Below the pieces are notes generated by a model. The model was not told the DNA's origin, did no database searches, and worked only from the letters and a program-made list of their open reading frames with translations. A stretch of 64,000 nt of DNA from an uncultured Lachnospiraceae bacterium (GTDB lineage: Bacteria > Bacillota > Clostridia > Lachnospirales > Lachnospiraceae). Both the position numbers and the translations under genes were made by a program. The DNA is taken from NCBI GenBank assembly GCA_902801515.1, contig CADCII010000003.1:1-64000 (forward strand). The letters are read 5' to 3'. Positions 6,365-24,905 of the stretch are shown here, piece after piece (position 1 is the first letter of the stretch; each line of letters starts with the position of its first letter).

Positions 6365-9300
6365 ATGGCTATACAGGCAAAAAAGAATCGTTCAGGTGCT
6401 GGATATTTCTGGGCGGGGTTTCTGATCCCGACTCTTATTGCGGGAATCGGTTTTTATCTGATCGGAGTCTGGCCGTCAGGAGACGGGACTGTACTTATCA
6501 TTGACTCTCTGCATCAGTATCTCCCGTTCTACACGGATTTTCATGAGAAACTGAGATCCGGCCAGGGACTCCTGTATTCTTTCTCTGCCGGCCTGGGCTA
6601 CAATTTCTGGGCGACGTACGCATATTATCTGGCAAGCCCTCTCAACTTCCTGATTGCCCTGGTACCGAAGGCGAATGTCTGTGATTTCATGGATCTGATG
6701 ATCCTTCTGAAGATAGGGTTGTGCGGGGGTACATTTTCCTGGTATATACATCAGCGCAATACCAGAGCGGTGGCACTTCCTGCCGCGTTTGGCAGCATGT
6801 TCGCACTGAGCAGTTTTGTGATCGGCTATTACTTTAACCTGATGTGGCTTGATTCGATCGCAATGCTTCCGCTGATCAGCTGCGGGATCGAGAGGATCTG
6901 CGGAATCGGCCGGGACAGACGCCTGAGCGGCGACTCTGACGGGAGGCTGTACGGCCTTGCCCTTGCATGCGGGATCTGGTGCAACTACTACATCGGATTT
7001 ATGCTGTGCATCTATGCAGTGTTTTATTTCCTGGTGTGTCTCATTATTGCCGGGAAGTGCAGACCGGTCCTGCTTGTAAAGAGAACCGTACGCTTTGCCT
7101 GGTTTTCTCTGCTGGGCGGTGGGATCGGAGCAGTGGTACTGCTTCCGGCGTACCGCGCTCTGACAATATCAGAGTCCATGCAGAGTAACAGCTTCCCAAA
7201 AGTACTGGATTTCTATGACAGTCTGATGGACATGGTGCTTACTCATTTCGCAGGGATCAGGCCCATCAATATCGCAAGTACCCAGGTTGGCCTGAACGCT
7301 TACTGTGGTGTATCAGTCCTGATCCTGGTATTGCTGTTTGCGCTTGACAGGAGCATAGCACTCAGGGAGAGACTGGCCAGGCTGGCTCTGGCGGGATTTC
7401 TCCTTCTGAGTTTTTCCCTCAGACCGCTGAACTATATCTGGCACGGATTCCATCAGCAGAACGGACTTCCGAACCGGTTTGCTTTTATCTATATAGCGGT
7501 CATACTGACGATGTCTTTCGATGCACTGAAGAATCTGAAGAAAACATCCGTGTGGAGAGTGCTTGTGGCGGGAGTGATCCCCATTGCCGGAGCACTGGTC
7601 CTGTTCATCGGGAATTACGCAAGAGACTTTGAAGACAAAGAGTATCCGGCATACGTATATCTGATCACTGTCGGATTACTGTGCGGGTATTGCCTGCTGC
7701 TGCTCGTGACAAGGCTTACCGGATTCACCAGGCAGGGAGCAGCTTTTCTGCTTGCAGTGCTCTGCTCGCTCGAAGCCGGCGCGAGCGCCGTGTATGGGAT
7801 CATCTGCAATGATTCGGTGACCCGCTCGATCTACCTGGATGACCAGAAGTCGTACAGGGAACTGATGTCGCAGATCGGAGACACAGACTGGTACCGTTCA
7901 GAGGTGGACGCCCAGCGGATGAGGAACGTCACTCTGTTCTGCGGCGGTAATTCCGTTGTGATGTTCAACTCTACCATGCAGCAGTCCGTCACTAAATTCT
8001 GTGACGCGATCGGGATGGAGGCCAGAACGAACAAGAACGGTTACAACGGCGTCACGAAGCTGATGAACGATGTGTTCGGGATCCGCTATGTGCTGAGTGC
8101 GAACGGAACAGGCAGCAGTCTGTACGGCTTTCCCGAAGTGGCCTCGGACAGTAATCTTAAGGTCTATAAAAATGAAGACGCTCTGCCTCTGGGGTTCCTG
8201 GTCAATGATACGATCACTCAGTGGGATACGACAACGGGAACTCCCATCGATGTGCAGGATTCATTTGTGACACTCGCAACAGGCCATGAACCGATCTATA
8301 CGCTGGACCGTTATCTGGATCTTGAGAGCGGTACTGAGAACGGAATCATCATACCTGAGGGCAAGCAGGTGTATGTATACCTGGCGAACCGTGTCAAGGA
8401 GCTGAGGCTTAAGACGCCGGAGTATTCCAAAACATACAGCACCTACACGGACCATCTGTATGTGATCGATGCATGTGATGATAAGTATGACGCCGACCTG
8501 ACAGCAACGCTCAGCGGAGACGGTCTTCAGAAGGCAGTCATCTATACCTGCCCGGATGCACTGGAGAAGGAAGTCAGGGATGAACTCGCGAAGACTCCTC
8601 TGGAAAACGTAACTGCCAGGGGAAGAAAACTTACCGGAACGATCCGCGCGGACAGGGACGGGGAACTGCTGATCACGATTCCGTATGACAGGAACTGGAC
8701 CTGCCGTGTTGATGGAAAGGTCACACAGGCAGACTGTATCGGAAATGCCCTTATGGGGATTGCGCTTACGGCCGGAGATCATGAGATCGCGCTGTCTTAC
8801 ATGCCGGACGGGATGAAGACAGGAGCTGCGGCAAGCATCCTGTGCGCTGTCCTTATGGTCATTTCCTGTATTCTGGAAGACAGACGAAGAAAAAGGGATA
8901 TAGCATTGGGAAGAGTAAGAAAAACAGATGAAGATGTGATCAATACGATCATGGATATTGCGGGCGAGGACCAGGTTCTGGAGATGGAACCGATGAAGAA
9001 GCACACCACATTCAGGATCGGCGGTCCTGCGGATCTGTTCGTGATCCCGGACAGTGAGAAATGTCTGACGAGAGTAGTGGATTACTGCAGACGGTCCGGA
9101 ACACCGTTCTATATCGTCGGAAACGGAAGCAATCTTCTGGTGTCCGACGAGGGATACCGCGGAGTGATCATCCAGATCGGACGGAATCTCTCTGATATCA
9201 CTGTGATCGGGGAACAGATCCATGCCCAGGCCGGTGCGCTGCTCTCGACTGTCGCTCACAGAGCCCTGGATGCGTCTCTTACCGGGATGGAACAGGTGTC

Positions 9301-9847
9301 CGGGATTCCCGGGACGCTGGGGGGCGCCCTGACGATGAACGCGGGAGCCTACGGCGGGGAGATGAAGGATATCACACAGGAGGTGACCGTGCTGACAGCA
9401 GACGGAAAGATCGTCACACTGAAGGCGCAGGATCTGCAGTTCGGTTACAGGACGAGCATTATCCAGAAAGAGAACATGATCGTTCTTTCGGCTGTGCTGA
9501 AGCTTCAGTCAGGAGACAGGGACAAGATTCAGGAGACGATGAATGAACTGCGGGGAAGAAGGCAGGAAAAACAGCCTCTGGATTTGCCAAGTGCGGGCTC
9601 AACATTCAAACGGCCTGAAGGTTATTTTGCCGGAGCTCTGATCGATGAAGCGGGACTTCGCGGATATCGTGTGGGCGGTGCCCAGGTGTCGGAGAAACAC
9701 TGCGGATTCGTTGTCAATAAAGGCGGCGCGACTGCTGCGGATGTGCGGAAACTGATCGATGATGTGAAGCAGATCGTGTATGATGATTCCGGAGTTATCC
9801 TGGAACCTGAAGTGAGGATGCTCGGGTTTGACGGTGATAAGACCTGA
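6365..9847 (+). CDS. murB: YfhO-family membrane protein fused in frame to MurB
   Basis: One uninterrupted frame of 1,160 residues. Residues 1-847 look like a YfhO-type polytopic membrane protein: many membrane segments, the early motif DSLHQYLPFYTDF and the pattern YSFSAGLGYNFWATYAY, a large extracytoplasmic region, and a last membrane helix near residues 818-835. In known YfhO proteins this architecture is linked to lipid-carried sugar modification of wall polymers. From about residue 848 the protein is a complete MurB, the FAD enzyme that reduces UDP-GlcNAc-enolpyruvate in peptidoglycan synthesis: HTTFRIGGPADLF, VGNGSNLLVSD, GIPGTLGGALTMNAGAYGGE and the active-site serine in SAGSTFKRP. The two are normally separate proteins. 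A TTG with its own Shine-Dalgarno lies exactly at the junction, so MurB may also be made alone. MurB then leads into rapZ, as in many Firmicutes. Confidence 0.9.
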   Translation: MAIQAKKNRSGAGYFWAGFLIPTLIAGIGFYLIGVWPSGDGTVLIIDSLHQYLPFYTDFHEKLRSGQGLLYSFSAGLGYNFWATYAYYLASPLNFLIALVPKANVCDFMDLMILLKIGLCGGTFSWYIHQRNTRAVALPAAFGSMFALSSFVIGYYFNLMWLDSIAMLPLISCGIERICGIGRDRRLSGDSDGRLYGLALACGIWCNYYIGFMLCIYAVFYFLVCLIIAGKCRPVLLVKRTVRFAWFSLLGGGIGAVVLLPAYRALTISESMQSNSFPKVLDFYDSLMDMVLTHFAGIRPINIASTQVGLNAYCGVSVLILVLLFALDRSIALRERLARLALAGFLLLSFSLRPLNYIWHGFHQQNGLPNRFAFIYIAVILTMSFDALKNLKKTSVWRVLVAGVIPIAGALVLFIGNYARDFEDKEYPAYVYLITVGLLCGYCLLLLVTRLTGFTRQGAAFLLAVLCSLEAGASAVYGIICNDSVTRSIYLDDQKSYRELMSQIGDTDWYRSEVDAQRMRNVTLFCGGNSVVMFNSTMQQSVTKFCDAIGMEARTNKNGYNGVTKLMNDVFGIRYVLSANGTGSSLYGFPEVASDSNLKVYKNEDALPLGFLVNDTITQWDTTTGTPIDVQDSFVTLATGHEPIYTLDRYLDLESGTENGIIIPEGKQVYVYLANRVKELRLKTPEYSKTYSTYTDHLYVIDACDDKYDADLTATLSGDGLQKAVIYTCPDALEKEVRDELAKTPLENVTARGRKLTGTIRADRDGELLITIPYDRNWTCRVDGKVTQADCIGNALMGIALTAGDHEIALSYMPDGMKTGAAASILCAVLMVISCILEDRRRKRDIALGRVRKTDEDVINTIMDIAGEDQVLEMEPMKKHTTFRIGGPADLFVIPDSEKCLTRVVDYCRRSGTPFYIVGNGSNLLVSDEGYRGVIIQIGRNLSDITVIGEQIHAQAGALLSTVAHRALDASLTGMEQVSGIPGTLGGALTMNAGAYGGEMKDITQEVTVLTADGKIVTLKAQDLQFGYRTSIIQKENMIVLSAVLKLQSGDRDKIQETMNELRGRRQEKQPLDLPSAGSTFKRPEGYFAGALIDEAGLRGYRVGGAQVSEKHCGFVVNKGGATAADVRKLIDDVKQIVYDDSGVILEPEVRMLGFDGDKT
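8894..8908 (+). promoter_or_regulatory. Candidate internal ribosome-binding site and TTG start for free MurB
   Basis: AGGG at 8894-8897, eight bases, then TTG at 8906, in frame with the long YfhO-MurB frame. Starting here would give a 313-residue MurB, the normal size for the family, and would leave 847 residues for YfhO, also near normal. There is no stop codon between the two parts. Whether ribosomes start here is inference. Confidence 0.45.
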
Positions 9848-14076: not shown

Positions 14077-17000
14077 GTGCGCAGACGACTGGAAGAGCTG
14101 CTGAATGAGACATTTGAATATGAGACTCCTCAGCTGCAGCTGACAGGGGACCTGCCCGGCGGCCAGGCCCGGGAGAATGAGACTCTCTCCGGGACACTGG
14201 TTCTTTCTCATCCGGAAGGAAAGAAGATAAGAGGGTTCGTATATACTTCCAGTCCCCGGATGGCGTGCAGTGTGCAGGATTTTTACAGTGCGAAACCACA
14301 GGTGCGCTGGCAGTTGGACCTGACAGGAATGGAACCTGGCGAATCCACTCAAGGATCAATCATTTTCTGCACTGACATCGGAGAGAAAGAGGTCAGTTAT
14401 GTAGTCTCGATACTTGAGCAAGGCAGCAGGATCACTGTTCCTGATGTGGACGGACTTGCGAAACTTGCCGCTGCAGATTTTGATACTGCCTGCGACATCT
14501 TTCAGTCTCCGGATTTCGGCAGATACCTGGAGGATGGAAAATGTGAGGAGCACACGCTGTGGAAGGTGTTCCAGGATGAGCCTGTCCGTGAGCATGCGCT
14601 GGAGGAATTCCTCATCGGGACAGGACGCAAGGAACCGATTGAACTGTCGCTGTCATCCGACAGCAGAAAAGTAGAGAATCCGGAAGGAACCGTCCTGGAG
14701 CAGGTGACTGTTTCCAGGAGTACATGGGGATGGCTGGAACTGGAGATCTCCTCAGACGCAAGATTCCTGAGAGTAGAGAAGAAGCGGGCCACAACGGATG
14801 ATTTTATTGGATCCGGATGGGAACTTCGCTATATCATAGACTCCAATTTTCTTCACGCAGGAAGAAACTGGGGAAGGATTACGATCCGTACCTGTTATCA
14901 GACGCTGACATATGAAGTCTGCGCGGAGATCCGCAGCCGTTCTGATCTTCGTTCACACCGTGTGAGAAGTGTCATGTGGAGAAAGGCAGCTTCGCTCTAT
15001 CTTGACTACAGGATGGGGAGGCTGGAACCGAAGCAGTGGGCTGAGCGGACACAGTCTGTGATCGGCAGCTACAAGAGAGCAGGGGGCGAGGATATACGTG
15101 CGGATCTGCTGTCTGTTTTTGCGATGCAGGCAGAAGGAAAGCGGTCTTCGTCTGAGAGAGAACTGCGCAGGATCGAACGTGTGCAGGATGTACTGGGCAA
15201 TCCGGAAGCAGAGGCCGCATGGCTGTATCTTTCAACCTTCTTTTCCAGAGACCAGGACTATATTAATCAGGTAAGAGGCAGGATCCGCATCCTTCATCTG
15301 GAACATAAGTCCTCCTGGCTGATCCAGTGGATCGCACTCTATCTTCTGGAAGATGAGATGGGCGGAGACGCCGGTAAGCTGGAGATAATTCTCCGCCATA
15401 TAGAGAGTTATCACGCCAGTCCCATACTGCTGCTGGAGGCGGTCCAGATCGCCCTGAAGAATCCTTTTCTGCTCCATGACTGGACAGCAGGGACCAGGAT
15501 GGTGATCAACTATGCTGTTAAGGAAGGCATCACGGACGAGAGACTGGTCCTTCACAGCATGAACCTGATCCGCAGAAGGAACAGGTTTGATCCCGCCACG
15601 TTCCGCATGCTTGCCCGCTGCTATGAGAATACCCGTCTTGATGACGTGCTGGCAGTGTGGACACAGATGGCGATCGTCGGCGAGAAGAAGGAAGAGAAAT
15701 ATTTCAGCCTGTATCAGGCGGCGGTAGCCCGTGACCTGAAGATTACCGGACTGTATGAATATTACATGGAGACCATGGGGGAGGTACGCATTGAGCAGAT
15801 GCCGCAGGTCATCCGCCGGTTCTTTGTGATGAATGAATCGCTTGACTGGAGAAAGAAGGCAAGGATCTACCGGAATATGTCTGACTCTGCGGACAGTATT
15901 CCCCAGATCTTTGCAGCCATGCGGCCTTCGGTGGAGAAGTTTATCACAGATCAGATTCAGATGCTGAGGATCAATGAAGATCTGGCAGTCCTGATCTCGC
16001 GTTATCTGAACCGCCAGATGATCACAGCTTCCCTCGCGAAGAAGCTGATAAGGCTGCTGTTTACATTTGAGATCGACTGCAGAAATCCTCTGATGAAGAA
16101 GGTGGCAGTGGCTGATACAAGACTCAGCCGTGTCCGTACGGTCCCGATCACAGGACACAAAGCACAGATCGAGATCTATTCCGAACAGTCCAGAATCCTC
16201 CTGGAGGACGAAGAAGGGCATCGCTACGCATCGACCTCACTCTATCTTGCAAAACACCTTCTGGATGACGCCAGACTGCTCAATCTCTGTGTGCAGGAAA
16301 CGAGGGATGACCCGCACCTGGTTCTGTTCTTCACCCTGAATCCGAAGGTACAGCAGCCCATTACGCATCAGACACTGGGATTCTTCCTTGATGCAGAGCG
16401 GCAGGCAGGGATCTCTGAGGATTACCGCATGCAGTTAAGGACCTGGCTGCTGGATTATTACGATACGCATACTTCCGAAGAGACTATGGGAACGTTTCTG
16501 AGGGAGATTGATACCGACACCTATGTCCGGATCGACAGGCGCAAACTCCTGGCGCTTCTCGCACAGGAGGGTATGTATGAGACTGCCTGGCCGGTTATTG
16601 AAAAGTACGGAACAGAAGGGACGGACCTGAACCTGCAGGTAAGAATCCTCTCCCAGACCGTTCTGGACAGGGATTATGAAGAAGACCGGACGCTTCTCAA
16701 GTTCTGTGCGGTGCTGTTTGAGTCGGGCAAGGTGGAGGAGCATCTGCTGTCTTACCTTCTGATGTATTATGATGGTCCTGTCAGGAAAATGAAGGAACTG
16801 TGGCGTCTTGGCCAGGAGTATGGACTGGATACCATGGCTATCGAGAAGAAGATACTCAGCCTGATCATTTTCACGAGAGAGGGAAGTGAGGGCAGTGAGC
16901 AGATCTACCTGTCCTACCGCAGGGCACTGGGAAGCAGAAGACTGAGCAGAGCCTACGTGATCCTTCGCTGTTATGAGTATCTGGTGAAGGAGCATCCGGT

Positions 17001-17610
17001 CGCAGAACCGATCTTTGAAGAATGCCAGAGAGAATATCTTAAGGGGAGCAAACTTCCTGACGTATGTGCTCTGGCACTGCTGCAGTACCTCAGTTCAGTC
17101 CCGCAGCTCAATGATGAACAGTTGGAAACAGCGCGCGGACTGCTGTCATTCTATACCGGGCGAGGGATATGTTTTGCGTATTTCCAGAGATTCCCGGTGG
17201 AACTGGTCTCGGGACTGGGAATCCAGGACAAGGTATTCTGCGAGGCAGTCGCGAATCCGGCGAACACTGTGAAACTGTTCTACCGGTACAAGCATGAAAA
17301 CCATCCGTTCACAGAAGAGACGATGAGGGATGTGTTTGAAGGAATAAGGGTCAGAGAGTTTGTACTCTTCGAGGGAGAAGAACTGGAGTGTTATACAGTT
17401 GAGACAGGACAGGACGGGAAGTCTTCTGTCAGCCCTCACCGTTACCTGAAGGCAGGTATGGTGCCTGAGAATCTGAAAGACAGCCGCTATGGAAGGATCA
17501 CTGCCATGTCACAGCTGCTCACATCCGGGGATAAGACGGGATTCTCGGAAGCTTTGAAGGAATACCGGCAGCTGGACAGCCTGACGAAGGAGATCTTTAC
17601 CCTGATGTGA
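14077..17610 (+). CDS. Large DUF5717-like protein: beta-sandwich N-terminus, helical-repeat body
   Basis: 1,177-residue protein that I recognise as resembling the DUF5717 family of Lachnospiraceae; its function is not known. No signal peptide or membrane segment is visible, so it is probably cytoplasmic. Residues about 1-110 and 185-285 look like two related beta-sandwich modules: both have a short acidic lead, a paired-aromatic core and a closing strand (SYVVSI; TYEVCAEI). From about residue 300 the chain is almost wholly helical, with TPR/HEAT-like spacing of Leu, Ala and Tyr. Start: GTG at 14077, six bases after GAGGGA. Its stop is 7 bp before the DUF5716-like gene, so the two are surely translated together. 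A scaffold role is inference. Confidence 0.8.
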   Translation: MRRRLEELLNETFEYETPQLQLTGDLPGGQARENETLSGTLVLSHPEGKKIRGFVYTSSPRMACSVQDFYSAKPQVRWQLDLTGMEPGESTQGSIIFCTDIGEKEVSYVVSILEQGSRITVPDVDGLAKLAAADFDTACDIFQSPDFGRYLEDGKCEEHTLWKVFQDEPVREHALEEFLIGTGRKEPIELSLSSDSRKVENPEGTVLEQVTVSRSTWGWLELEISSDARFLRVEKKRATTDDFIGSGWELRYIIDSNFLHAGRNWGRITIRTCYQTLTYEVCAEIRSRSDLRSHRVRSVMWRKAASLYLDYRMGRLEPKQWAERTQSVIGSYKRAGGEDIRADLLSVFAMQAEGKRSSSERELRRIERVQDVLGNPEAEAAWLYLSTFFSRDQDYINQVRGRIRILHLEHKSSWLIQWIALYLLEDEMGGDAGKLEIILRHIESYHASPILLLEAVQIALKNPFLLHDWTAGTRMVINYAVKEGITDERLVLHSMNLIRRRNRFDPATFRMLARCYENTRLDDVLAVWTQMAIVGEKKEEKYFSLYQAAVARDLKITGLYEYYMETMGEVRIEQMPQVIRRFFVMNESLDWRKKARIYRNMSDSADSIPQIFAAMRPSVEKFITDQIQMLRINEDLAVLISRYLNRQMITASLAKKLIRLLFTFEIDCRNPLMKKVAVADTRLSRVRTVPITGHKAQIEIYSEQSRILLEDEEGHRYASTSLYLAKHLLDDARLLNLCVQETRDDPHLVLFFTLNPKVQQPITHQTLGFFLDAERQAGISEDYRMQLRTWLLDYYDTHTSEETMGTFLREIDTDTYVRIDRRKLLALLAQEGMYETAWPVIEKYGTEGTDLNLQVRILSQTVLDRDYEEDRTLLKFCAVLFESGKVEEHLLSYLLMYYDGPVRKMKELWRLGQEYGLDTMAIEKKILSLIIFTREGSEGSEQIYLSYRRALGSRRLSRAYVILRCYEYLVKEHPVAEPIFEECQREYLKGSKLPDVCALALLQYLSSVPQLNDEQLETARGLLSFYTGRGICFAYFQRFPVELVSGLGIQDKVFCEAVANPANTVKLFYRYKHENHPFTEETMRDVFEGIRVREFVLFEGEELECYTVETGQDGKSSVSPHRYLKAGMVPENLKDSRYGRITAMSQLLTSGDKTGFSEALKEYRQLDSLTKEIFTLM

Positions 17611-17617
17611 GACAGTT

Positions 17618-18781
17618 ATGGATGATGAAAAGAGTGTATTAATAGGCATACAGATCTCCGGAGACGGAGCGCAGATCACCTGGTATGACCAGAGCCTGGA
17701 AGAACCTCAGACACTGTCCCTGCCCGGAGAGGGTGAGGACGGTCTGATCAGTGTACCCGCGGACGCCTGGAAAGGAGCACTTCGCGGGGGACGGTTCGGT
17801 ATGCAGTCTCTCGGAAAATTCATGGCAAAGCTGATCGGCATGGTTCCCGGAAGTCCCTCCATGGATAATGTGAGGGTGTCGGTCACTGTCCCGAGCCTTA
17901 CGCAGGAACTGGGAGACCATATCATTGCCTGCCTTGAGGAACTGGGGATCGGACGCAGGAATCTCTTCCTGCAGGACTGGCGGACCAGCTTCTACTACTA
18001 TGTTGTCAGCATGAAGAAAGAACTCTGGAATGCGGATGTGGCGTTTATCCGTCTGCGGAATATGCAGATGCACGGGAGCATCCTTCACATTGACCGCACA
18101 GTACGTCCCTGGGTCGTAACGATCCAGGATGTCGCGACTGCAGACGTAAGTGACCGCGCCAGAGGTAAGCGGAATGATGAGGACTGGGACAAAGAAAGAG
18201 ACAGGATCTTCTATGAGTTCCTGGGAAAACTGTTTGAGAGACGGACTGTATCGACCAGTTACCTGTATGGCAATTATTTTGACAGAAGCTGGGCAGAGCG
18301 CTCTTTCCAGTATCTGACATTCCGCAGACATGCGTTCCAGGGACAGAATCTGTTTTCCAAGGGGGCTTGCTACAGCCTGCTGATCAGGATGGGGATCCGC
18401 CATATCCCGGACATGCTGTTCATGGGCGTGGACATGGTCACCCACAATATCGGAATGCGCCTTAGAGTGAAAGGCAGAGAGCAGTATCACATGCTGATCC
18501 CCGCGGGAGTCAACTGGTATGAGGCACACAGCCGCATTGAGATGATACCGGACGGAGAATCCAGCATAACGATCCTGACAACGCCCATGGAAGGCGGGGA
18601 GACGGTGGGGAGAGTTCTCAGGCTGGATCATTTCCCTGACAGAAAGAACAGAGCAACCAGGCTGCGGATGACGATTTATTTTTCATCTGCCCACCGGTGT
18701 GAGATAGAAGTCGAAGACCTGGGATTCGGAGGGATCACTCCCTCCAGCGGCAGAGTCTGGAAAAGACAGGTGATCCTATGA
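17618..18781 (+). CDS. DUF5716-like protein resembling a degenerate Hsp70
   Basis: 387 residues, recognised as DUF5716-like. Read against Hsp70, the N-terminus (SVLIGIQISGDGAQITWYD, residues 6-24) sits where the phosphate-1 loop would be, but the usual Asp is Gln12. The stretch VRVSVTVPSLTQELGDHI resembles the Hsp70 VPA segment. From residue 272 (DMVTHNIGMRLRVKG, then MLIPAGVNWYEAHSRIEM, then TILTTPMEGGETVGRVLRL) the pattern follows the beta-sandwich substrate-binding domain of Hsp70: a SLG-like turn, a LIP.NT-like loop, and an EGE-like turn before the closing strands. It may therefore be an inactive chaperone-like protein; this is my reading, not an established fact. It overlaps the next gene by 4 bp (ATGA). 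Confidence 0.75.
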   Translation: MDDEKSVLIGIQISGDGAQITWYDQSLEEPQTLSLPGEGEDGLISVPADAWKGALRGGRFGMQSLGKFMAKLIGMVPGSPSMDNVRVSVTVPSLTQELGDHIIACLEELGIGRRNLFLQDWRTSFYYYVVSMKKELWNADVAFIRLRNMQMHGSILHIDRTVRPWVVTIQDVATADVSDRARGKRNDEDWDKERDRIFYEFLGKLFERRTVSTSYLYGNYFDRSWAERSFQYLTFRRHAFQGQNLFSKGACYSLLIRMGIRHIPDMLFMGVDMVTHNIGMRLRVKGREQYHMLIPAGVNWYEAHSRIEMIPDGESSITILTTPMEGGETVGRVLRLDHFPDRKNRATRLRMTIYFSSAHRCEIEVEDLGFGGITPSSGRVWKRQVIL

Positions 18782-19575
18782 GTTTTGACCTTTGTATGGA
18801 AAAAAAGGCGGAACATCCGTTTTTTATAGAGAGTATCGGGATCCGGATCTATACGATCGAAGAGCTGTGCTGGTTTTTGCACAACAATCTGTACCTGATC
18901 GACAGAAATGTAACTTCCGCCGCCCTGGCAGCCTGGATCCGGGATGAACTCGGCCTGAAGTCACTGGCAAGGAAACTGATGGACGCGGTTGAGCGGCCGG
19001 ACAAAGATGCGAGTTATTTTATCGTTCCCATTTTCCAGGAGATCGGGTATCTGTCTCCGGAGGAGATGCGGCGTCTTCGCGAGGAACTGACCAGGGTGCA
19101 GGTCCAGCCGGAAGACCAGAGAGCAAAGATACGTGCTGACTATCTGGTCAGCGGAGGGCGCAGCGCAGCAGCGATCACAGCCTACAGGAAGATCCTGGAT
19201 AAGAAGGCGGAAGGAAACCTGGGGACTTCATTTTACGCGTCTGTCTGGAACAATCTGGGGTGTGCCTATGCGCAGCAGTTCAGGTTCAGTGACGCGGCTG
19301 ACGCATTTCTGGCCGGATGGAAACTGGTCCAGACCAGGGAACTGATGCGCAAATATGTCAGCACACTGCCGCTGTTTCTGTCAGAGGAGGAATACAAGGA
19401 AAAACTCACTTCGCTGGGAGCCGACGGGATGCTGATCGGAAAGATACAGGAATACAATGCTTCTGTTGCCAGGGAAGTCGAGGAGAAGGTCGCTTCCAGA
19501 AGAAATCCCGGAGAAGATCCGGCAAAGGAACTGGAACAGCTGAAGACAGAATACAGAAGAGGGGCATTTCATTAA
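18778..19575 (+). CDS. Helical-repeat (TPR-like) protein coupled to the DUF5716-like gene
   Basis: 265-residue soluble protein, family not recognised. Residues 1-110 are helical with conserved-looking aromatic stretches (YTIEELCWFLHNNLYLID). The middle (SVWNNLGCAYAQQFRFSDAADAFLAGWKL) is a clear TPR unit: the N.LG.AY and A...F. spacing is canonical. The C-terminus is a charged helix (EVEEKVASRR ... ELEQLKTEYRR), possibly a coiled coil. It starts inside the stop of the preceding gene (ATGA), and its own TAA shares a base with the next ATG (TAATG). This indicates strict co-translation of the set. A likely role is as adaptor to the Hsp70-like protein; that is inference. Confidence 0.75.
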   Translation: MSFDLCMEKKAEHPFFIESIGIRIYTIEELCWFLHNNLYLIDRNVTSAALAAWIRDELGLKSLARKLMDAVERPDKDASYFIVPIFQEIGYLSPEEMRRLREELTRVQVQPEDQRAKIRADYLVSGGRSAAAITAYRKILDKKAEGNLGTSFYASVWNNLGCAYAQQFRFSDAADAFLAGWKLVQTRELMRKYVSTLPLFLSEEEYKEKLTSLGADGMLIGKIQEYNASVAREVEEKVASRRNPGEDPAKELEQLKTEYRRGAFH

Positions 19576-20552
19576 TGACCGGAAGAATGCTATATCCTAT
19601 ACGGAAAGCCGCGGCGGTACTGCTTATGACTGCAGGTATCGCGGCGGCAGCTTTTCTCCCTGCTTCAGGTCAGGAAACGGCGGAAAACCCGGGACAGATT
19701 GAAGAAGTCCATGTCACCATCCCGGGCATGGAGGGCAGCAGGAAAATCCTGTGGATCTCCGACATGCATATCTTCAGTTACCCGGATGACCCTGATGTGG
19801 CTGCGGAGCAGCAGGAAGAGGCTGAGGAGAGAGCACCTGTCTTCACAAATACGGAGGGGATCACTTCCTGTGAAAACTGGGAGCTGCTGAGCAGCAGGAT
19901 CGATTCCTACAGCGCTGATTATGTGGTATTTGGCGCGGACATGATCGATTATGTCTCTGTGGCAAATCTGAATGCCCTTCAGGAAGGTCTTGCCAAAGTG
20001 AATACCCCCTGGATGTACATCCGTGCGGACCATGATTACGGCCGCTGGTATGTCGATATGGGAATAAAAAAGATGCGGAAACTCCACCGTCAGATCGCGC
20101 CCCAGAATAAGATCTGGATACAGAGATTTGAAGAATTTACACTGGTCGGGCTGGACAATACGACGTCGGCGGTTGACGATGAGACGCTTCAGGAATTCAG
20201 AAAAGTCTGCGGGGAAGGGAAACCCGTCCTGCTGTGTATGCATGTCCCCGTCGACCAGAGAGAAGGAAGGGCGGAAGCATCCGGCTCCGGCCAGACGCTG
20301 GCACAGGCTTCAGAAGAGATCTGGGGAGGCAGGATCCTGTGCTGGGGAGAAGGGGATGAGTATGATACTCTTTCCGCAGATAATATGAGGGAACTTACGG
20401 ATATGATCTATGAGCCGGGAAGCCCTGTCGCGGCAGTATTCGCCGGTCATCTGCACCTGACATGGGACGGCAGTCTTACCCCGTCATGCACGGAGCATGT
20501 TTTCGGGGCGGCGTATGAAGACCATATCGGGGTGATCACCGTAAGCGGATAA
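19575..20552 (+). CDS. Secreted metallophosphoesterase
   Basis: 325 residues from the ATG at 19575. A basic N-terminus followed by a hydrophobic stretch (AAAVLLMTAGIAAAAFLPASG) is a signal peptide or signal anchor. The calcineurin-like phosphoesterase metal motifs appear in order: ISDMHIF (DxH), VFGADMID (GD-type), RADHDYG in place of GNHD/E, MHVP, and GHLHL (GHxH). The GNH motif is altered, yet the His and Asp ligands remain, so activity is plausible; the substrate is unknown. It overlaps the previous stop by one base, so it belongs to the transcript of the DUF5717/DUF5716 set although it would act outside the membrane. Confidence 0.85.
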   Translation: MTGRMLYPIRKAAAVLLMTAGIAAAAFLPASGQETAENPGQIEEVHVTIPGMEGSRKILWISDMHIFSYPDDPDVAAEQQEEAEERAPVFTNTEGITSCENWELLSSRIDSYSADYVVFGADMIDYVSVANLNALQEGLAKVNTPWMYIRADHDYGRWYVDMGIKKMRKLHRQIAPQNKIWIQRFEEFTLVGLDNTTSAVDDETLQEFRKVCGEGKPVLLCMHVPVDQREGRAEASGSGQTLAQASEEIWGGRILCWGEGDEYDTLSADNMRELTDMIYEPGSPVAAVFAGHLHLTWDGSLTPSCTEHVFGAAYEDHIGVITVSG

Positions 20553-20558
20553 ATGTAG

Positions 20559-20587
20559 TTGCGTCCTTGTCCTCTTTACGCTATAAT
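20559..20587 (+). promoter_or_regulatory. Promoter of purF
   Basis: TTGCGT at 20559-20564, 17-bp spacer, perfect TATAAT at 20582-20587. Transcription would start near 20594, leaving a leader of about 40 bases before the TTG start. There is no room for a purine riboswitch and no palindromic PurR-like site is evident. Confidence 0.75.
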
Positions 20588-20632
20588 CCACATTGTTTTT
20601 TGGCTATTTGTATTAACCTGAGGGAGAAACAT

Positions 20633-22093
20633 TTGCATAAGAGAAATTACGGAATATTTGACGCCGGAGAGATCCTTGACGAGCCGCGCGAGGAGTGCGG
20701 CGTCTTTGGAATGTATGATTTTTCCGGTGAGGAAAATGTTGCACCTTCCATCTATTACGGACTGCTCGCTCTGCAGCACAGGGGGCAGGAGAGCTGCGGT
20801 ATTGCTGTCAGCAACACTGAAGGACCGAAGGGTAAAGTGCTCAGCCGAAAGGGAATGGGACTGGTCAACGAGAACTTTGATGAGGATGATCTGGACAATC
20901 TGTGCGGCAATATCGGTGTCGGCCACGTCCGTTATTCGACAGCCGGCGCCAGCACTATAGAAAATGCACAGCCGCTGGTCCTTCATTATATCAAGGGCAC
21001 GCTTGCCATGGCGCACAACGGCAATCTGGTCAATTCACCGGAACTGACCAGAGAACTGTCCAGGACCGGAGCAATCTTCCAGACAACGATCGATTCTGAA
21101 CTGATCGCTTATGAGATCGCCAGAGCCCGCGTCAATACAGCGTCTGTCGAGGAGGCTGTCTCCAAGGCAATGGAGAGGATCAGGGGAGCTTATTCTCTGG
21201 TCATCATGAGTCCGAGAAAACTCATCGGAGCAAGAGACCCCTTTGGATTCAGACCTCTGTGTATCGGAAAAAGAGGGAACACCTGGGTGCTCGCATCTGA
21301 ATCCTGCGCCCTGGATACGATCGGTGCGGAATTTATCCGCGATGTTGAACCCGGCGAGATCGTGACCATATCTCCGAGATTTGGTATCCGCTCTGACAGA
21401 AGCCACTGCATGCGCACGTCGAAGACAGCAAGATGCATATTTGAATACATCTACTTTGGAAGAGCGGATTCAGAGATCGACAGGATATCTGTTTATAACT
21501 CGAGAATCCAGGCAGGACGTTTCCTGGCGCAGGACAGCCCGGTGGAGGCAGACCTTGTGATCGGTGTTCCGGAATCCGGCAACGTGGCAGCTCTTGGATA
21601 CAGTATGGAGAGCGGCATACCGTTTGGACAGGGATTCGTGAAAAACAGTTATGTAGGCCGGACATTTATCAAACCGTCCCAGCACAGCAGGGAGTCGGCC
21701 GTCCAGGTCAAACTCAATCCGCTGCGTCATGCGGTCGAAGGGAAGAGGATCGTCATGATCGACGACTCCATCGTACGGGGAACGACCAGTGACCGTATCG
21801 TCCGTATGCTCAGAGATGCGGGAGCCACCGAGGTACATATGAGGGTCAGCTCACCGCCGTTCCTGTATCCGTGCTATTTCGGAACCGATATACCGGAGAG
21901 AGAGCAGCTGATCGCCTACAGACGCTCCAATGAAGAAGTATGTGAATTGATCGGTGCAGACAGCCTGGCATATCTGGGCATGGAGAGACTTCCGCAGATC
22001 GTGGACGGACTGCCGATCTGCAGCGGCTGTTTCAGCGGGAAGTATCCTGTTGAACCGCCGAAGGAAGATATACGCGGAGAATATGAACGATAA
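20633..22093 (+). CDS. purF: PurF, amidophosphoribosyltransferase
   Basis: Catalyses the first committed step of purine synthesis, PRPP plus glutamine to phosphoribosylamine. The TTG at 20633, after GAGGGAGAAACAT, gives 486 residues; the longer upstream frame would run into the promoter. The glutaminase nucleophile is Cys22 in EECGVFG, so a 21-residue propeptide must be removed. LQHRGQES and GHVRYST follow. The PRPP loop is IVMIDDSIVRGTTS, and CSGCFSGKYP near the C-terminus supplies two cysteines of the Bacillus-type 4Fe-4S cluster. purB follows 44 bp later. Confidence 0.96.
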   Translation: MHKRNYGIFDAGEILDEPREECGVFGMYDFSGEENVAPSIYYGLLALQHRGQESCGIAVSNTEGPKGKVLSRKGMGLVNENFDEDDLDNLCGNIGVGHVRYSTAGASTIENAQPLVLHYIKGTLAMAHNGNLVNSPELTRELSRTGAIFQTTIDSELIAYEIARARVNTASVEEAVSKAMERIRGAYSLVIMSPRKLIGARDPFGFRPLCIGKRGNTWVLASESCALDTIGAEFIRDVEPGEIVTISPRFGIRSDRSHCMRTSKTARCIFEYIYFGRADSEIDRISVYNSRIQAGRFLAQDSPVEADLVIGVPESGNVAALGYSMESGIPFGQGFVKNSYVGRTFIKPSQHSRESAVQVKLNPLRHAVEGKRIVMIDDSIVRGTTSDRIVRMLRDAGATEVHMRVSSPPFLYPCYFGTDIPEREQLIAYRRSNEEVCELIGADSLAYLGMERLPQIVDGLPICSGCFSGKYPVEPPKEDIRGEYER

Positions 22094-22137
22094 AGATGCA
22101 TAATCCATGCGGCAGTTTATTTCACCAGGAGGATATC

Positions 22138-23571
22138 ATGAACTACGACGGATATACCAGCCCGCTGTCACAGCGTTACGCTTCAAAGGAGATGCAGTAC
22201 CTCTTCTCGCAGAACAAGAAGTTCCGCACCTGGAGAAAACTCTGGATTGCTCTGGCTGAGACTGAGAAGGAACTGGGACTGAATATCACGCAGGAACAGA
22301 TTGATGAGCTGAAAGCGCATCAGGACGATATCAATTATGCGGACGCCGAACAGAGAGAGAAGGAAGTGCGCCATGACGTCATGAGTCATGTATATGCTTA
22401 CGGGCTGCAGTGCCCGAAAGCAAAGGGCATCATCCATCTGGGCGCCACCAGCTGCTATGTCGGCGACAATACTGATATCATCATCATGCGTGATGCTCTG
22501 GACCTGCTTCACAGGAAACTGGTCAATGTGATCGCGAAGCTCGCACAGTTTGCGGAAGAGTATAAGGACCTTCCAACTCTTGCGTTTACTCATTTCCAGC
22601 CGGCGCAGCCCACCACAGTGGGAAAGCGCGCCACTCTGTGGATGAATGAGTTCATGATAGATCTGGAAGACCTTGAGTATGTGCGCTCTACATTGAAGCT
22701 GCTTGGCTCCAAGGGAACCACCGGAACCCAGGCTTCCTTCCTGGAACTGTTTGACGGGGATAATGAGACTGTCGACAGGATCGATCCGATGATTGCTCAG
22801 AAGATGGGATTTGATTCCTGCTATCCGGTCTCCGGCCAGACCTACTCCCGCAAGGTCGATACGCGGGTTATGAATGTGGTTGCGGGGATCGCGGCAAGCG
22901 CGCATAAGATGTCCAATGACATCCGTCTGCTTCAGCATCTGAAGGAGGTCGAAGAACCGTTTGAGAAGTCGCAGATCGGCTCCAGTGCGATGGCCTACAA
23001 GAGGAATCCGATGCGCTCCGAACGTATTGCTTCCCTGTCGCGCTATGTGATGGTGAACAGTCTTAATCCGGCTATTACAAGCTCTGTACAGTGGTTTGAA
23101 CGTACGCTGGATGATTCCGCAAACCGCCGCCTGTCAATCGCGGAAGGTTTCCTTGCGATCGACGGAATCCTGGACCTGTGCCTGAATGTTACGGACGGCC
23201 TGAAGGTATACCCGAAGGTCATTGAAAAGAGGCTTCGTTCGGAACTTCCGTTCATGGCCACGGAGAATATCATGATGGATGCGGTCAAGGCGGGCGGAGA
23301 CCGCCAGGAACTGCATGAGAAGATCCGTACTCTGTCCATGGAAGCGGGCAGAACGGTCAAGGAAGAAGGAAAGGACAACAATCTTCTGGAACTGATCGCC
23401 GGAGATGAGACCTTCCCGATGGACCTTGAGGACCTGGAGCGGTCCATGGAACCATCCAGGTACACGGGCAGAGCTTCCTATCAGGTCACAAAGTACCTGG
23501 ATGAGGTGATAAAGCCGATGCTGGAGGATAATAAAGAGGAGCTTGGGGTCACGGCTCAGATCAATGTGTAA
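22138..23571 (+). CDS. purB: PurB, adenylosuccinate lyase
   Basis: 477-residue fumarase/aspartase-superfamily enzyme that acts twice in purine synthesis (SAICAR to AICAR, adenylosuccinate to AMP). The signature loop GSSAMAYKRNPMRSE is intact, and LGATSCYVGDNTD and THFQPAQPTTVGKR are the other active-site regions. Start: ATG at 22138 after CCAGGAGGATATC. An in-frame upstream ATG at 22096 lacks a ribosome-binding site. It lies between purF and purA. Confidence 0.97.
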   Translation: MNYDGYTSPLSQRYASKEMQYLFSQNKKFRTWRKLWIALAETEKELGLNITQEQIDELKAHQDDINYADAEQREKEVRHDVMSHVYAYGLQCPKAKGIIHLGATSCYVGDNTDIIIMRDALDLLHRKLVNVIAKLAQFAEEYKDLPTLAFTHFQPAQPTTVGKRATLWMNEFMIDLEDLEYVRSTLKLLGSKGTTGTQASFLELFDGDNETVDRIDPMIAQKMGFDSCYPVSGQTYSRKVDTRVMNVVAGIAASAHKMSNDIRLLQHLKEVEEPFEKSQIGSSAMAYKRNPMRSERIASLSRYVMVNSLNPAITSSVQWFERTLDDSANRRLSIAEGFLAIDGILDLCLNVTDGLKVYPKVIEKRLRSELPFMATENIMMDAVKAGGDRQELHEKIRTLSMEAGRTVKEEGKDNNLLELIAGDETFPMDLEDLERSMEPSRYTGRASYQVTKYLDEVIKPMLEDNKEELGVTAQINV

Positions 23572-23612
23572 CTGTAAGTTTGCAGAATTTGCAGTTCAGT
23601 CAGGAGGTTATC

Positions 23613-24905
23613 ATGGTACAGGCAGTTGTCGGTGCAAACTGGGGAGATGAAGGAAAGGGCAAGATCGTAGATACACTTGCTGACCGCGCGGACATCGTCG
23701 TGCGCTATCAGGGCGGCGCCAATGCCGGACACACCATTGTCAACAAGTATGGTAAGTTCGCATTGCATACGCTTCCCAGCGGAGTCTGCCATCCGGAATG
23801 TGTCAACGTTCTGGGCAATGGCGTTGCTCTGAATATCCCGCTGGTGGTGAAGGAGATCCAGGAACTGGTCTCCAGAGGAGTTCCAAAGCCGCAGGTTCTG
23901 ATCTCTGACAGAGCACAGGTGGTCATGAGCTATCACATTAATTTTGACGCATATGAAGAAGAGCGCCTTGCAGGAAAGAGCTTTGGCTCCACCAAGTCCG
24001 GCATTGCTCCTTTCTTTTCGGATAAATATGCGAAGATCGGTTTCCAGGTCTCTGAACTGTTTGATGATGAGATACTTGAGGAGAAGGCAGAGCGTATCTG
24101 CACTCTGAAAAATGTTATGCTCGAGCATCTGTATCACAAACCGCTTCTGAAGAAAGAAGACCTCATGCAGGAGCTGCATGAATACCGCGATATGGTCAGG
24201 CCTTATGTCGCTGATACCGCGACCTTCCTTCAGAAAGCAATTAAGGAAGGAAAGACCATCCTTCTGGAGGGACAGCTGGGCACCATGAAGGATCCCGATC
24301 ACGGAATCTATCCCATGGTGACATCCTCTCCGACACTCGCCGGATATGGAGCCATAGGGGCAGGCGTTCCGCCCTATGCGATCGAGAAGATCGTAACTGT
24401 CACGAAGGCATATTCCTCTGCAGTAGGAGCGGGAGAGTTTGTATCTGAGATCTTCGGTGATGAAGCGGAAGAACTGAGAAGACGCGGCGGAGACGGCGGA
24501 GAATACGGTGCGACCACGGGACGTCCCAGAAGAGTCGGCTGGTATGATGTGGTCGCCTCCAGGTATGGCTGCCGGCTGCAGGGAGCGACGGATATCGCGC
24601 TCACAGTCGTTGACTGCCTGAGTTATCTTGATGAGATTCCTGTCTGTGTCGCATACGAGATCGACGGACGCCGGACGGATGATTTCCCGACCACGTCTGA
24701 CCTGAAGAAGGCGAAACCGGTCTGGACGACTCTTCCGGGCTGGAAATGTGATATCCGCGGTATCCGCAGCTATGACGAGCTGCCGGAGAACTGCAGAAAG
24801 TATATCGAATTCATCGAGGAGCAGATTGGTTTCCCGGTCACTATGGTTTCCAACGGACCGGGCCGTGATGATATTATCTATCGCGAGAGTACCCTGAAGA
24901 ATTAA
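23613..24905 (+). CDS. purA: PurA, adenylosuccinate synthase
   Basis: 430 residues. Converts IMP and aspartate to adenylosuccinate using GTP. GDEGKGKIVD is the P-loop, GGANAGHTIV the IMP-site segment, and TTGRPRRVGWYD the C-terminal signature. Start: ATG at 23613 seven bases after CAGGAGG, preferred to an upstream ATG at 23580 that has no ribosome-binding site and adds non-family residues. It lies 41 bp after purB; a hairpin follows the stop. Confidence 0.97.
   Translation: MVQAVVGANWGDEGKGKIVDTLADRADIVVRYQGGANAGHTIVNKYGKFALHTLPSGVCHPECVNVLGNGVALNIPLVVKEIQELVSRGVPKPQVLISDRAQVVMSYHINFDAYEEERLAGKSFGSTKSGIAPFFSDKYAKIGFQVSELFDDEILEEKAERICTLKNVMLEHLYHKPLLKKEDLMQELHEYRDMVRPYVADTATFLQKAIKEGKTILLEGQLGTMKDPDHGIYPMVTSSPTLAGYGAIGAGVPPYAIEKIVTVTKAYSSAVGAGEFVSEIFGDEAEELRRRGGDGGEYGATTGRPRRVGWYDVVASRYGCRLQGATDIALTVVDCLSYLDEIPVCVAYEIDGRRTDDFPTTSDLKKAKPVWTTLPGWKCDIRGIRSYDELPENCRKYIEFIEEQIGFPVTMVSNGPGRDDIIYRESTLKN

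Follow-up and report, generated by a model that had tools for sequence, protein, structure and literature searches.

The window analysed here is a stretch of 64,000 nucleotides, positions 1 to 64,000 of contig CADCII010000003.1 from an uncultured Lachnospiraceae bacterium. Three co-directional genes lie on its forward strand. Gene A (14077..17610) begins with a GTG start codon and encodes a DUF5717 protein of 1177 aa, a putative scaffold. Gene B (17618..18781) encodes a DUF5716 protein of 387 aa, shorter than most of its relatives, and gene C (18778..19575) encodes a TPR protein of 265 aa, a putative adaptor. When the open reading frames (ORFs) were re-derived, the arrangement given in the original prediction proved exact: A and B are spaced by a 7-bp gap, and B and C share a 4-bp ATGA overlap. 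The family names that it had offered also hold. Pfam recognizes A as a full-length DUF5717 protein (PF18984 and PF18983; DUF5717_N, E 2.2e-204; DUF5717, E 2.3e-80) and B as a DUF5716 protein (PF18980; DUF5716_C, E 1.2e-88), while TPR matches to C stay below threshold (best 1.9e-4). NCBIfam assigns no family to A or B and only below-threshold matches to C and to the next gene, D.

Gene D (19575..20552, forward strand) encodes a metallophosphoesterase-like protein with one computed N-terminal hydrophobic stretch; its start overlaps the stop codon of C by one base, an overlap from which we read D as translationally coupled to C. We rejected D as a member of the conserved system. It has no relatives in 90 neighborhood loci, and it is left out because it is barely alike (E 0.003) to the metallophosphoesterase that precedes a related operon at locus L173. 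Further 3′ (20567-24905) are purF-like, purB-like, and purA-like genes, which often lie 3′ of the operon in relatives too; such genes occur in 64, 53, and 12 of the 90 neighborhood loci, respectively. Elsewhere in the window, an ORF of 1160 aa (6365-9847) encodes a YfhO-type membrane protein (Pfam E 9.7e-137) and, continuous with it, a MurB-type domain (MurB_C, 2.1e-37); this ORF is either an unusual fusion or the product of a lost stop codon.

The description of A as a beta-sandwich and helical protein is borne out by its AlphaFold model (pLDDT 85.7, pTM 0.57). By the secondary structure of this model, a first Ig/ASH-like beta-sandwich spans residues ~20-112 (14134..14412, forward strand, as for all domains of A), and a second, PapD/ASH-like, spans residues ~190-285 (14644..14931). 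A long alpha-solenoid follows (14947..17217; residues ~291-661 and ~732-1047), interrupted at 663-727 by a small beta domain, and the protein ends in a C-terminal beta domain (17230..17451; residues ~1052-1125). Fold comparison matched the solenoid to common TPR-like solenoids, and some matches of A are to ciliary, IFT, and nuclear-pore scaffolds. The folds of A are common ones, and no function is readable from them; searches of the A and B sequences against PDB chains gave nothing useful. The TPR-like character proposed for C is confirmed by a profile of 39 C proteins, which has clear matches to TPR structures, and by the C homologue in L173, which has strong TPR matches (TPR_2, 2.2e-21).

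The 3 genes are near-universal in the family. In a sample of 150 Lachnospiraceae genomes from 149 genera, A is present in 148, B in 147, and C in 148 (one C match is weak). Conservation of the neighborhood had been set beforehand as a test that could refute the proposal, and the neighborhood is conserved: A and B are adjacent in 142 of the 146 genomes that list both, with the genes on separate contigs in the remaining 4, and B adjoins C in 146/147. B and C even form a single ORF, a fusion, in 6/147 genomes. In an evenly drawn phylum sample of 299 genomes, DUF5717_N was found in 4, all Lachnospiraceae, and DUF5716_C in exactly those 4. Named relatives agree with this family: of 556 loci, the 80 kept are mostly labeled Lachnospiraceae, a few with broader or odd labels. 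Among named relatives, A, B, C, and a fourth protein, D4, diverge fast and in step with each other. Spearman correlations of pairwise distances are 0.825 for A-B, 0.817 for A-C, and 0.835 for A-D4, against control values, from the same distances, of 0.663 for A-PurB and 0.255 for A-PurF; the low A-PurF value is due in part to extra purF copies, so PurB is the fairer control. These computations support joint inheritance of the three genes A, B, and C.

Two family genomes, G320 and G373 (completeness 93% and 98%), have neither A nor B, and G373 also has no C. These may be real losses of the system, and two family genomes without A and B imply that it is not strictly indispensable. HSP90 genes are present in 31 of the 90 neighborhood loci (e.g., L064:2947-5028); HSP90 never adjoins A, and we set it aside as a member of the system, taking the association as synteny. 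A scan for CIRCE elements was positive in 1/106 upstream regions, and the control performed likewise poorly (1/17).

The original prediction called the proteins cytoplasmic. For A, B, and C this stands: no hydrophobic stretches were computed in any of them. In many relatives, however, D4, a coiled-coil protein of ~395 aa, lies 3′ of C, and it has two hydrophobic stretches in 8/8 rows computed. D4 is found in 62 of the 150 family genomes (2 of them weak matches) and adjoins C in 60 of the 62. The cytoplasmic label is therefore incomplete for the system at large, though D4 was not found in the window's own genome.

A search for Hsp70 in relatives led to Hsp70 gene clusters in other families of the order. 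There, a larger operon of 8-9 genes has the order AN-AC-Hsp70a-X-Hsp70b-Hsp70c-Hsp70d-C. We picked 20 loci from genomes with a match to A. The full order, with AN-AC or a fused A, is seen in 15 of these, AN and AC being fused in 4; among the 15, L225 has other ORFs inserted and L231 has split genes. D4 was recognized in larger-operon loci L173, L219, L220, and L231. The computations support 3 correspondences: A in the window corresponds to a single-protein fusion of AN with AC, C is the TPR protein of the larger operon, and B is related to its Hsp70b paralogue. The larger operon carries parts that the window's operon does not. Of 17 X proteins, 16 carry a GrpE domain at the C terminus, and this nucleotide exchange factor domain occurs in the larger operon only. 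All 14 Hsp70d rows given carry a vWA domain at the C terminus, each with D-x-T-x-S and a later D, and the domain is predicted to bind metal.

The 5 remaining picked loci fall short of the full order: 3 have AN-AC alone, 1 has AN-AC-Hsp70b, and 1 has a Lachnospiraceae-type A-B-C. In the genomes with AN-AC alone (G667, G822, and G735), Hsp70s elsewhere in the genome fit the four types by length and score, so the set seems to co-occur without close linkage. L229 (G657) retains AN-AC-Hsp70b, the other Hsp70s being missing at the locus; this would be a second reduction that again retains the pseudo-ATPase, possibly an independent one. The A-B-C locus, L227, comes from a genome with another family label and 5% contamination (G797), and may be a contaminant.

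How far does the system extend? The original prediction envisaged a system specific to Lachnospiraceae. Its near-universality there is confirmed, but the system is not confined to the family: with an alignment of both forms of A, 94 of 196 genomes in an order sample match, comprising 22 Lachnospiraceae and 72 others, and these 72 carry 15 other family labels, most with A split in two. None of the 20 unmatched order genomes listed is from Lachnospiraceae. In a class sample of 196 genomes, only 8 Lachnospiraceae match, plus one genome (G496) at E 6.6e-4; the sample lists only two other order members, neither matching, so that the outer limit of the system is only thinly sampled. A weak DUF5717_N match in G539 (E 8.3e-5) was treated as chance, its stretch L053 having no match to the A, B, C, D4, or Hsp70 profiles.

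The central identification is that of B, which the original prediction had called a degenerate Hsp70-like protein. Profile-profile comparison, intermediates that match both Pfam models, and the AlphaFold model of a relative agree, and B as an Hsp70 homologue is well supported by sequence and model alike. Against an Hsp70 profile, B scores a probability of 96.4 (E 1.2e-9); among the controls, none of 12 other profiles exceeded 1.1 and none of 8 column shuffles exceeded 0.6. The Hsp70 profile comprises 16 sequences, including 4 Hsp70a or Hsp70d sequences of the larger operon (L159, L161, L163, and L164); with these removed, the probability is 94.8 (E 5.3e-8), and against a profile of 9 DnaK alone it is 72.7 (E 3.2e-5). 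Hsp70b of L173 matches DUF5716_C (1.8e-25) and HSP70 (1.9e-16) simultaneously, and Hsp70c of the same locus matches HSP70 (2.5e-57) and DUF5716_C (1.2e-10); by sequence, these two proteins are direct bridges between the families. The AlphaFold model (pLDDT 91.8), built for a relative that shares 27% identity with window B, has Hsp70s as its structural matches. It shows an actin-like nucleotide-binding domain of the Hsp70 type and a beta substrate-binding domain, and ends after the latter: the helical lid (SBD alpha) is missing.

ATPase residues are numbered here as in E. coli DnaK. In the alignment of B proteins, K70 is kept in 0/38, E171 in 0/41, and T199 in 2/41. All three together occur in 19/19 Hsp70a, 18/18 Hsp70c, and 17/19 Hsp70d (2 of the 19 Hsp70d rows being pieces of one split gene), and in 0/18 Hsp70b and 0/41 B. 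The first adenosine-loop glycine is kept in 18/18 Hsp70b and 41/41 B, and D8 in 17/18 and 38/41, respectively. Window B itself has Q at D8, W at E171, and a gap at the K70 column; of the residues checked, a single adenosine-loop glycine is left, the others being replaced or missing. As judged from these residues, B is a pseudo-ATPase homologue without the catalytic residues of an active Hsp70, and Hsp70a, Hsp70c, and Hsp70d are predicted to be ATPase-competent while Hsp70b is not. In trees, B groups with Hsp70b (support 0.879 and 0.988), Hsp70c joins next (1.0), and then Hsp70a (0.999 and 1.0); the placement of Hsp70d relative to DnaK has a support of only 0.478. Since K70, E171, and T199 are together in 0/18 Hsp70b, the paralogue retained by Lachnospiraceae already lacked catalytic residues. 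Besides B, the Hsp70-type matches in the window's genome are one DnaK, one MreB-like protein, and one weak match.

The account that we favor, and regard as falling just on the probable side, is that the window's operon represents what is left, as a reduced core, of a dedicated Hsp70-type machine for chaperoning or assembly. The homologies beneath it are well supported, and from them we infer a complex, a client, and a function along the following lines. A would be a scaffold that holds B, and B would act without ATP hydrolysis, as a structural hub that binds peptides weakly. C may recruit a client, or else the ordinary cellular DnaK, which the reduced form is predicted to borrow, and D4, where present, could be the membrane anchor of the complex. 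The scaffold of the complete machine would be where three Hsp70s able to hydrolyze ATP, among them the one bearing a metal-binding vWA domain, run through their cycles, served by a dedicated GrpE-type exchange factor; the window's lineage would have lost this ATP-driven arm.

The main alternative is that the operon encodes a structural complex and no chaperone: a scaffold or coat linked to the membrane, with the Hsp70 fold as a building block and nothing more. The missing ATPase residues and lid of B, the beta-sandwich and solenoid build of A with its scattering of ciliary, IFT, and nuclear-pore matches, and the two hydrophobic stretches of D4 (8/8) fit such a complex. Yet the scaffold matches of A are generic, and the three ATPase-competent Hsp70s and GrpE domain of the larger operon point to an ancestor with an active chaperone cycle; we consider a purely structural role unlikely, if the most serious of the competing readings.

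Lower still we place a conflict (defense) system akin to the GAP1-N2 GTPase systems or the CoCoNuTs, which strikes us as improbable. The part lists are alike: according to PMC7159879, GAP1-N2 systems combine HSP70 and GrpE with beta-sandwich (FNIII) proteins that carry a TPR or DnaJ fusion, and, according to PMC11090510, the CoCoNuT proteins CnuD and CnuCD pair degenerate Hsp70-like NBD/SBD regions with helical repeats. PADLOC candidate models also give weak matches at L173 (Hsp70a, 4e-5; C, 2e-9), but window A, B, and C have none. The operon is near-universal at one site in the family, whereas defense genes are patchy, and no GTPase, McrB, or nuclease is among the operon proteins scanned. The defining GTPase and GAP1 of GAP1-N2 systems are unseen among the proteins scanned, a scan that covered part of the neighbors with models other than GAP1 and DO-GTPase; CnuD and CnuCD belong to McrBC-type restriction systems, and neither McrB nor McrC homologues are among the proteins scanned. 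That B is an actin-like filament protein of the MreB/FtsA type is largely disfavored and highly improbable: actin and Hsp70 share a nucleotide-binding fold, and Hsp70c and Hsp70d of the operon also match an MreB model, but the model of the B relative has the beta substrate-binding domain of Hsp70 and Hsp70s as structural matches, and the intermediates match HSP70 and DUF5716_C.

The favored reading, a reduced chaperone or assembly machine, can be set beside familiar Hsp70 systems. Like bacterial DnaK-DnaJ-GrpE, it has the Hsp70 fold and, in the larger operon, its own GrpE domain; it differs in that B is without lid and ATPase residues, the window genome has a separate, ordinary DnaK, and four Hsp70 paralogues share one larger operon. 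Lidless Hsp70s exist, e.g., Ssz1 (PMC7083937), and by analogy B would probably be Ssz1-like in its mode of action: lidless and non-hydrolyzing, a hub that binds weakly. In the eukaryotic ribosome-associated complex (RAC), Ssz1 is partnered by the J-domain protein Zuo1; the putative partners of B are instead a TPR protein and a protein built of beta-sandwiches and a solenoid, and a J-domain, the partner anticipated for any Hsp70 system, had no match in the operon proteins scanned.

We advance a broader proposal more tentatively, as possible rather than probable: a hetero-oligomeric chaperone line with its own exchange factor, in which one beta-sandwich/solenoid scaffold carries four Hsp70s that cannot stand in for each other (a pseudo-ATPase and three ATPases, of which one has a metal-binding vWA domain), and from which one family evolved an ATP-free remnant, now near-universal there. 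If true, this would be a class of Hsp70 machine without known counterpart. Literature searches, in a collection largely of open papers, found no description of the operon. Lachnospiraceae are abundant in the animal gut, and a near-universal operon of this family so far carries DUF names only. With DUF5716 assigned to the Hsp70 family and linked to the larger operon, these genes become a testable chaperone system. The series from full set to remnant may offer a natural route to the role of a pseudo-ATPase Hsp70 after the loss of its active partners.
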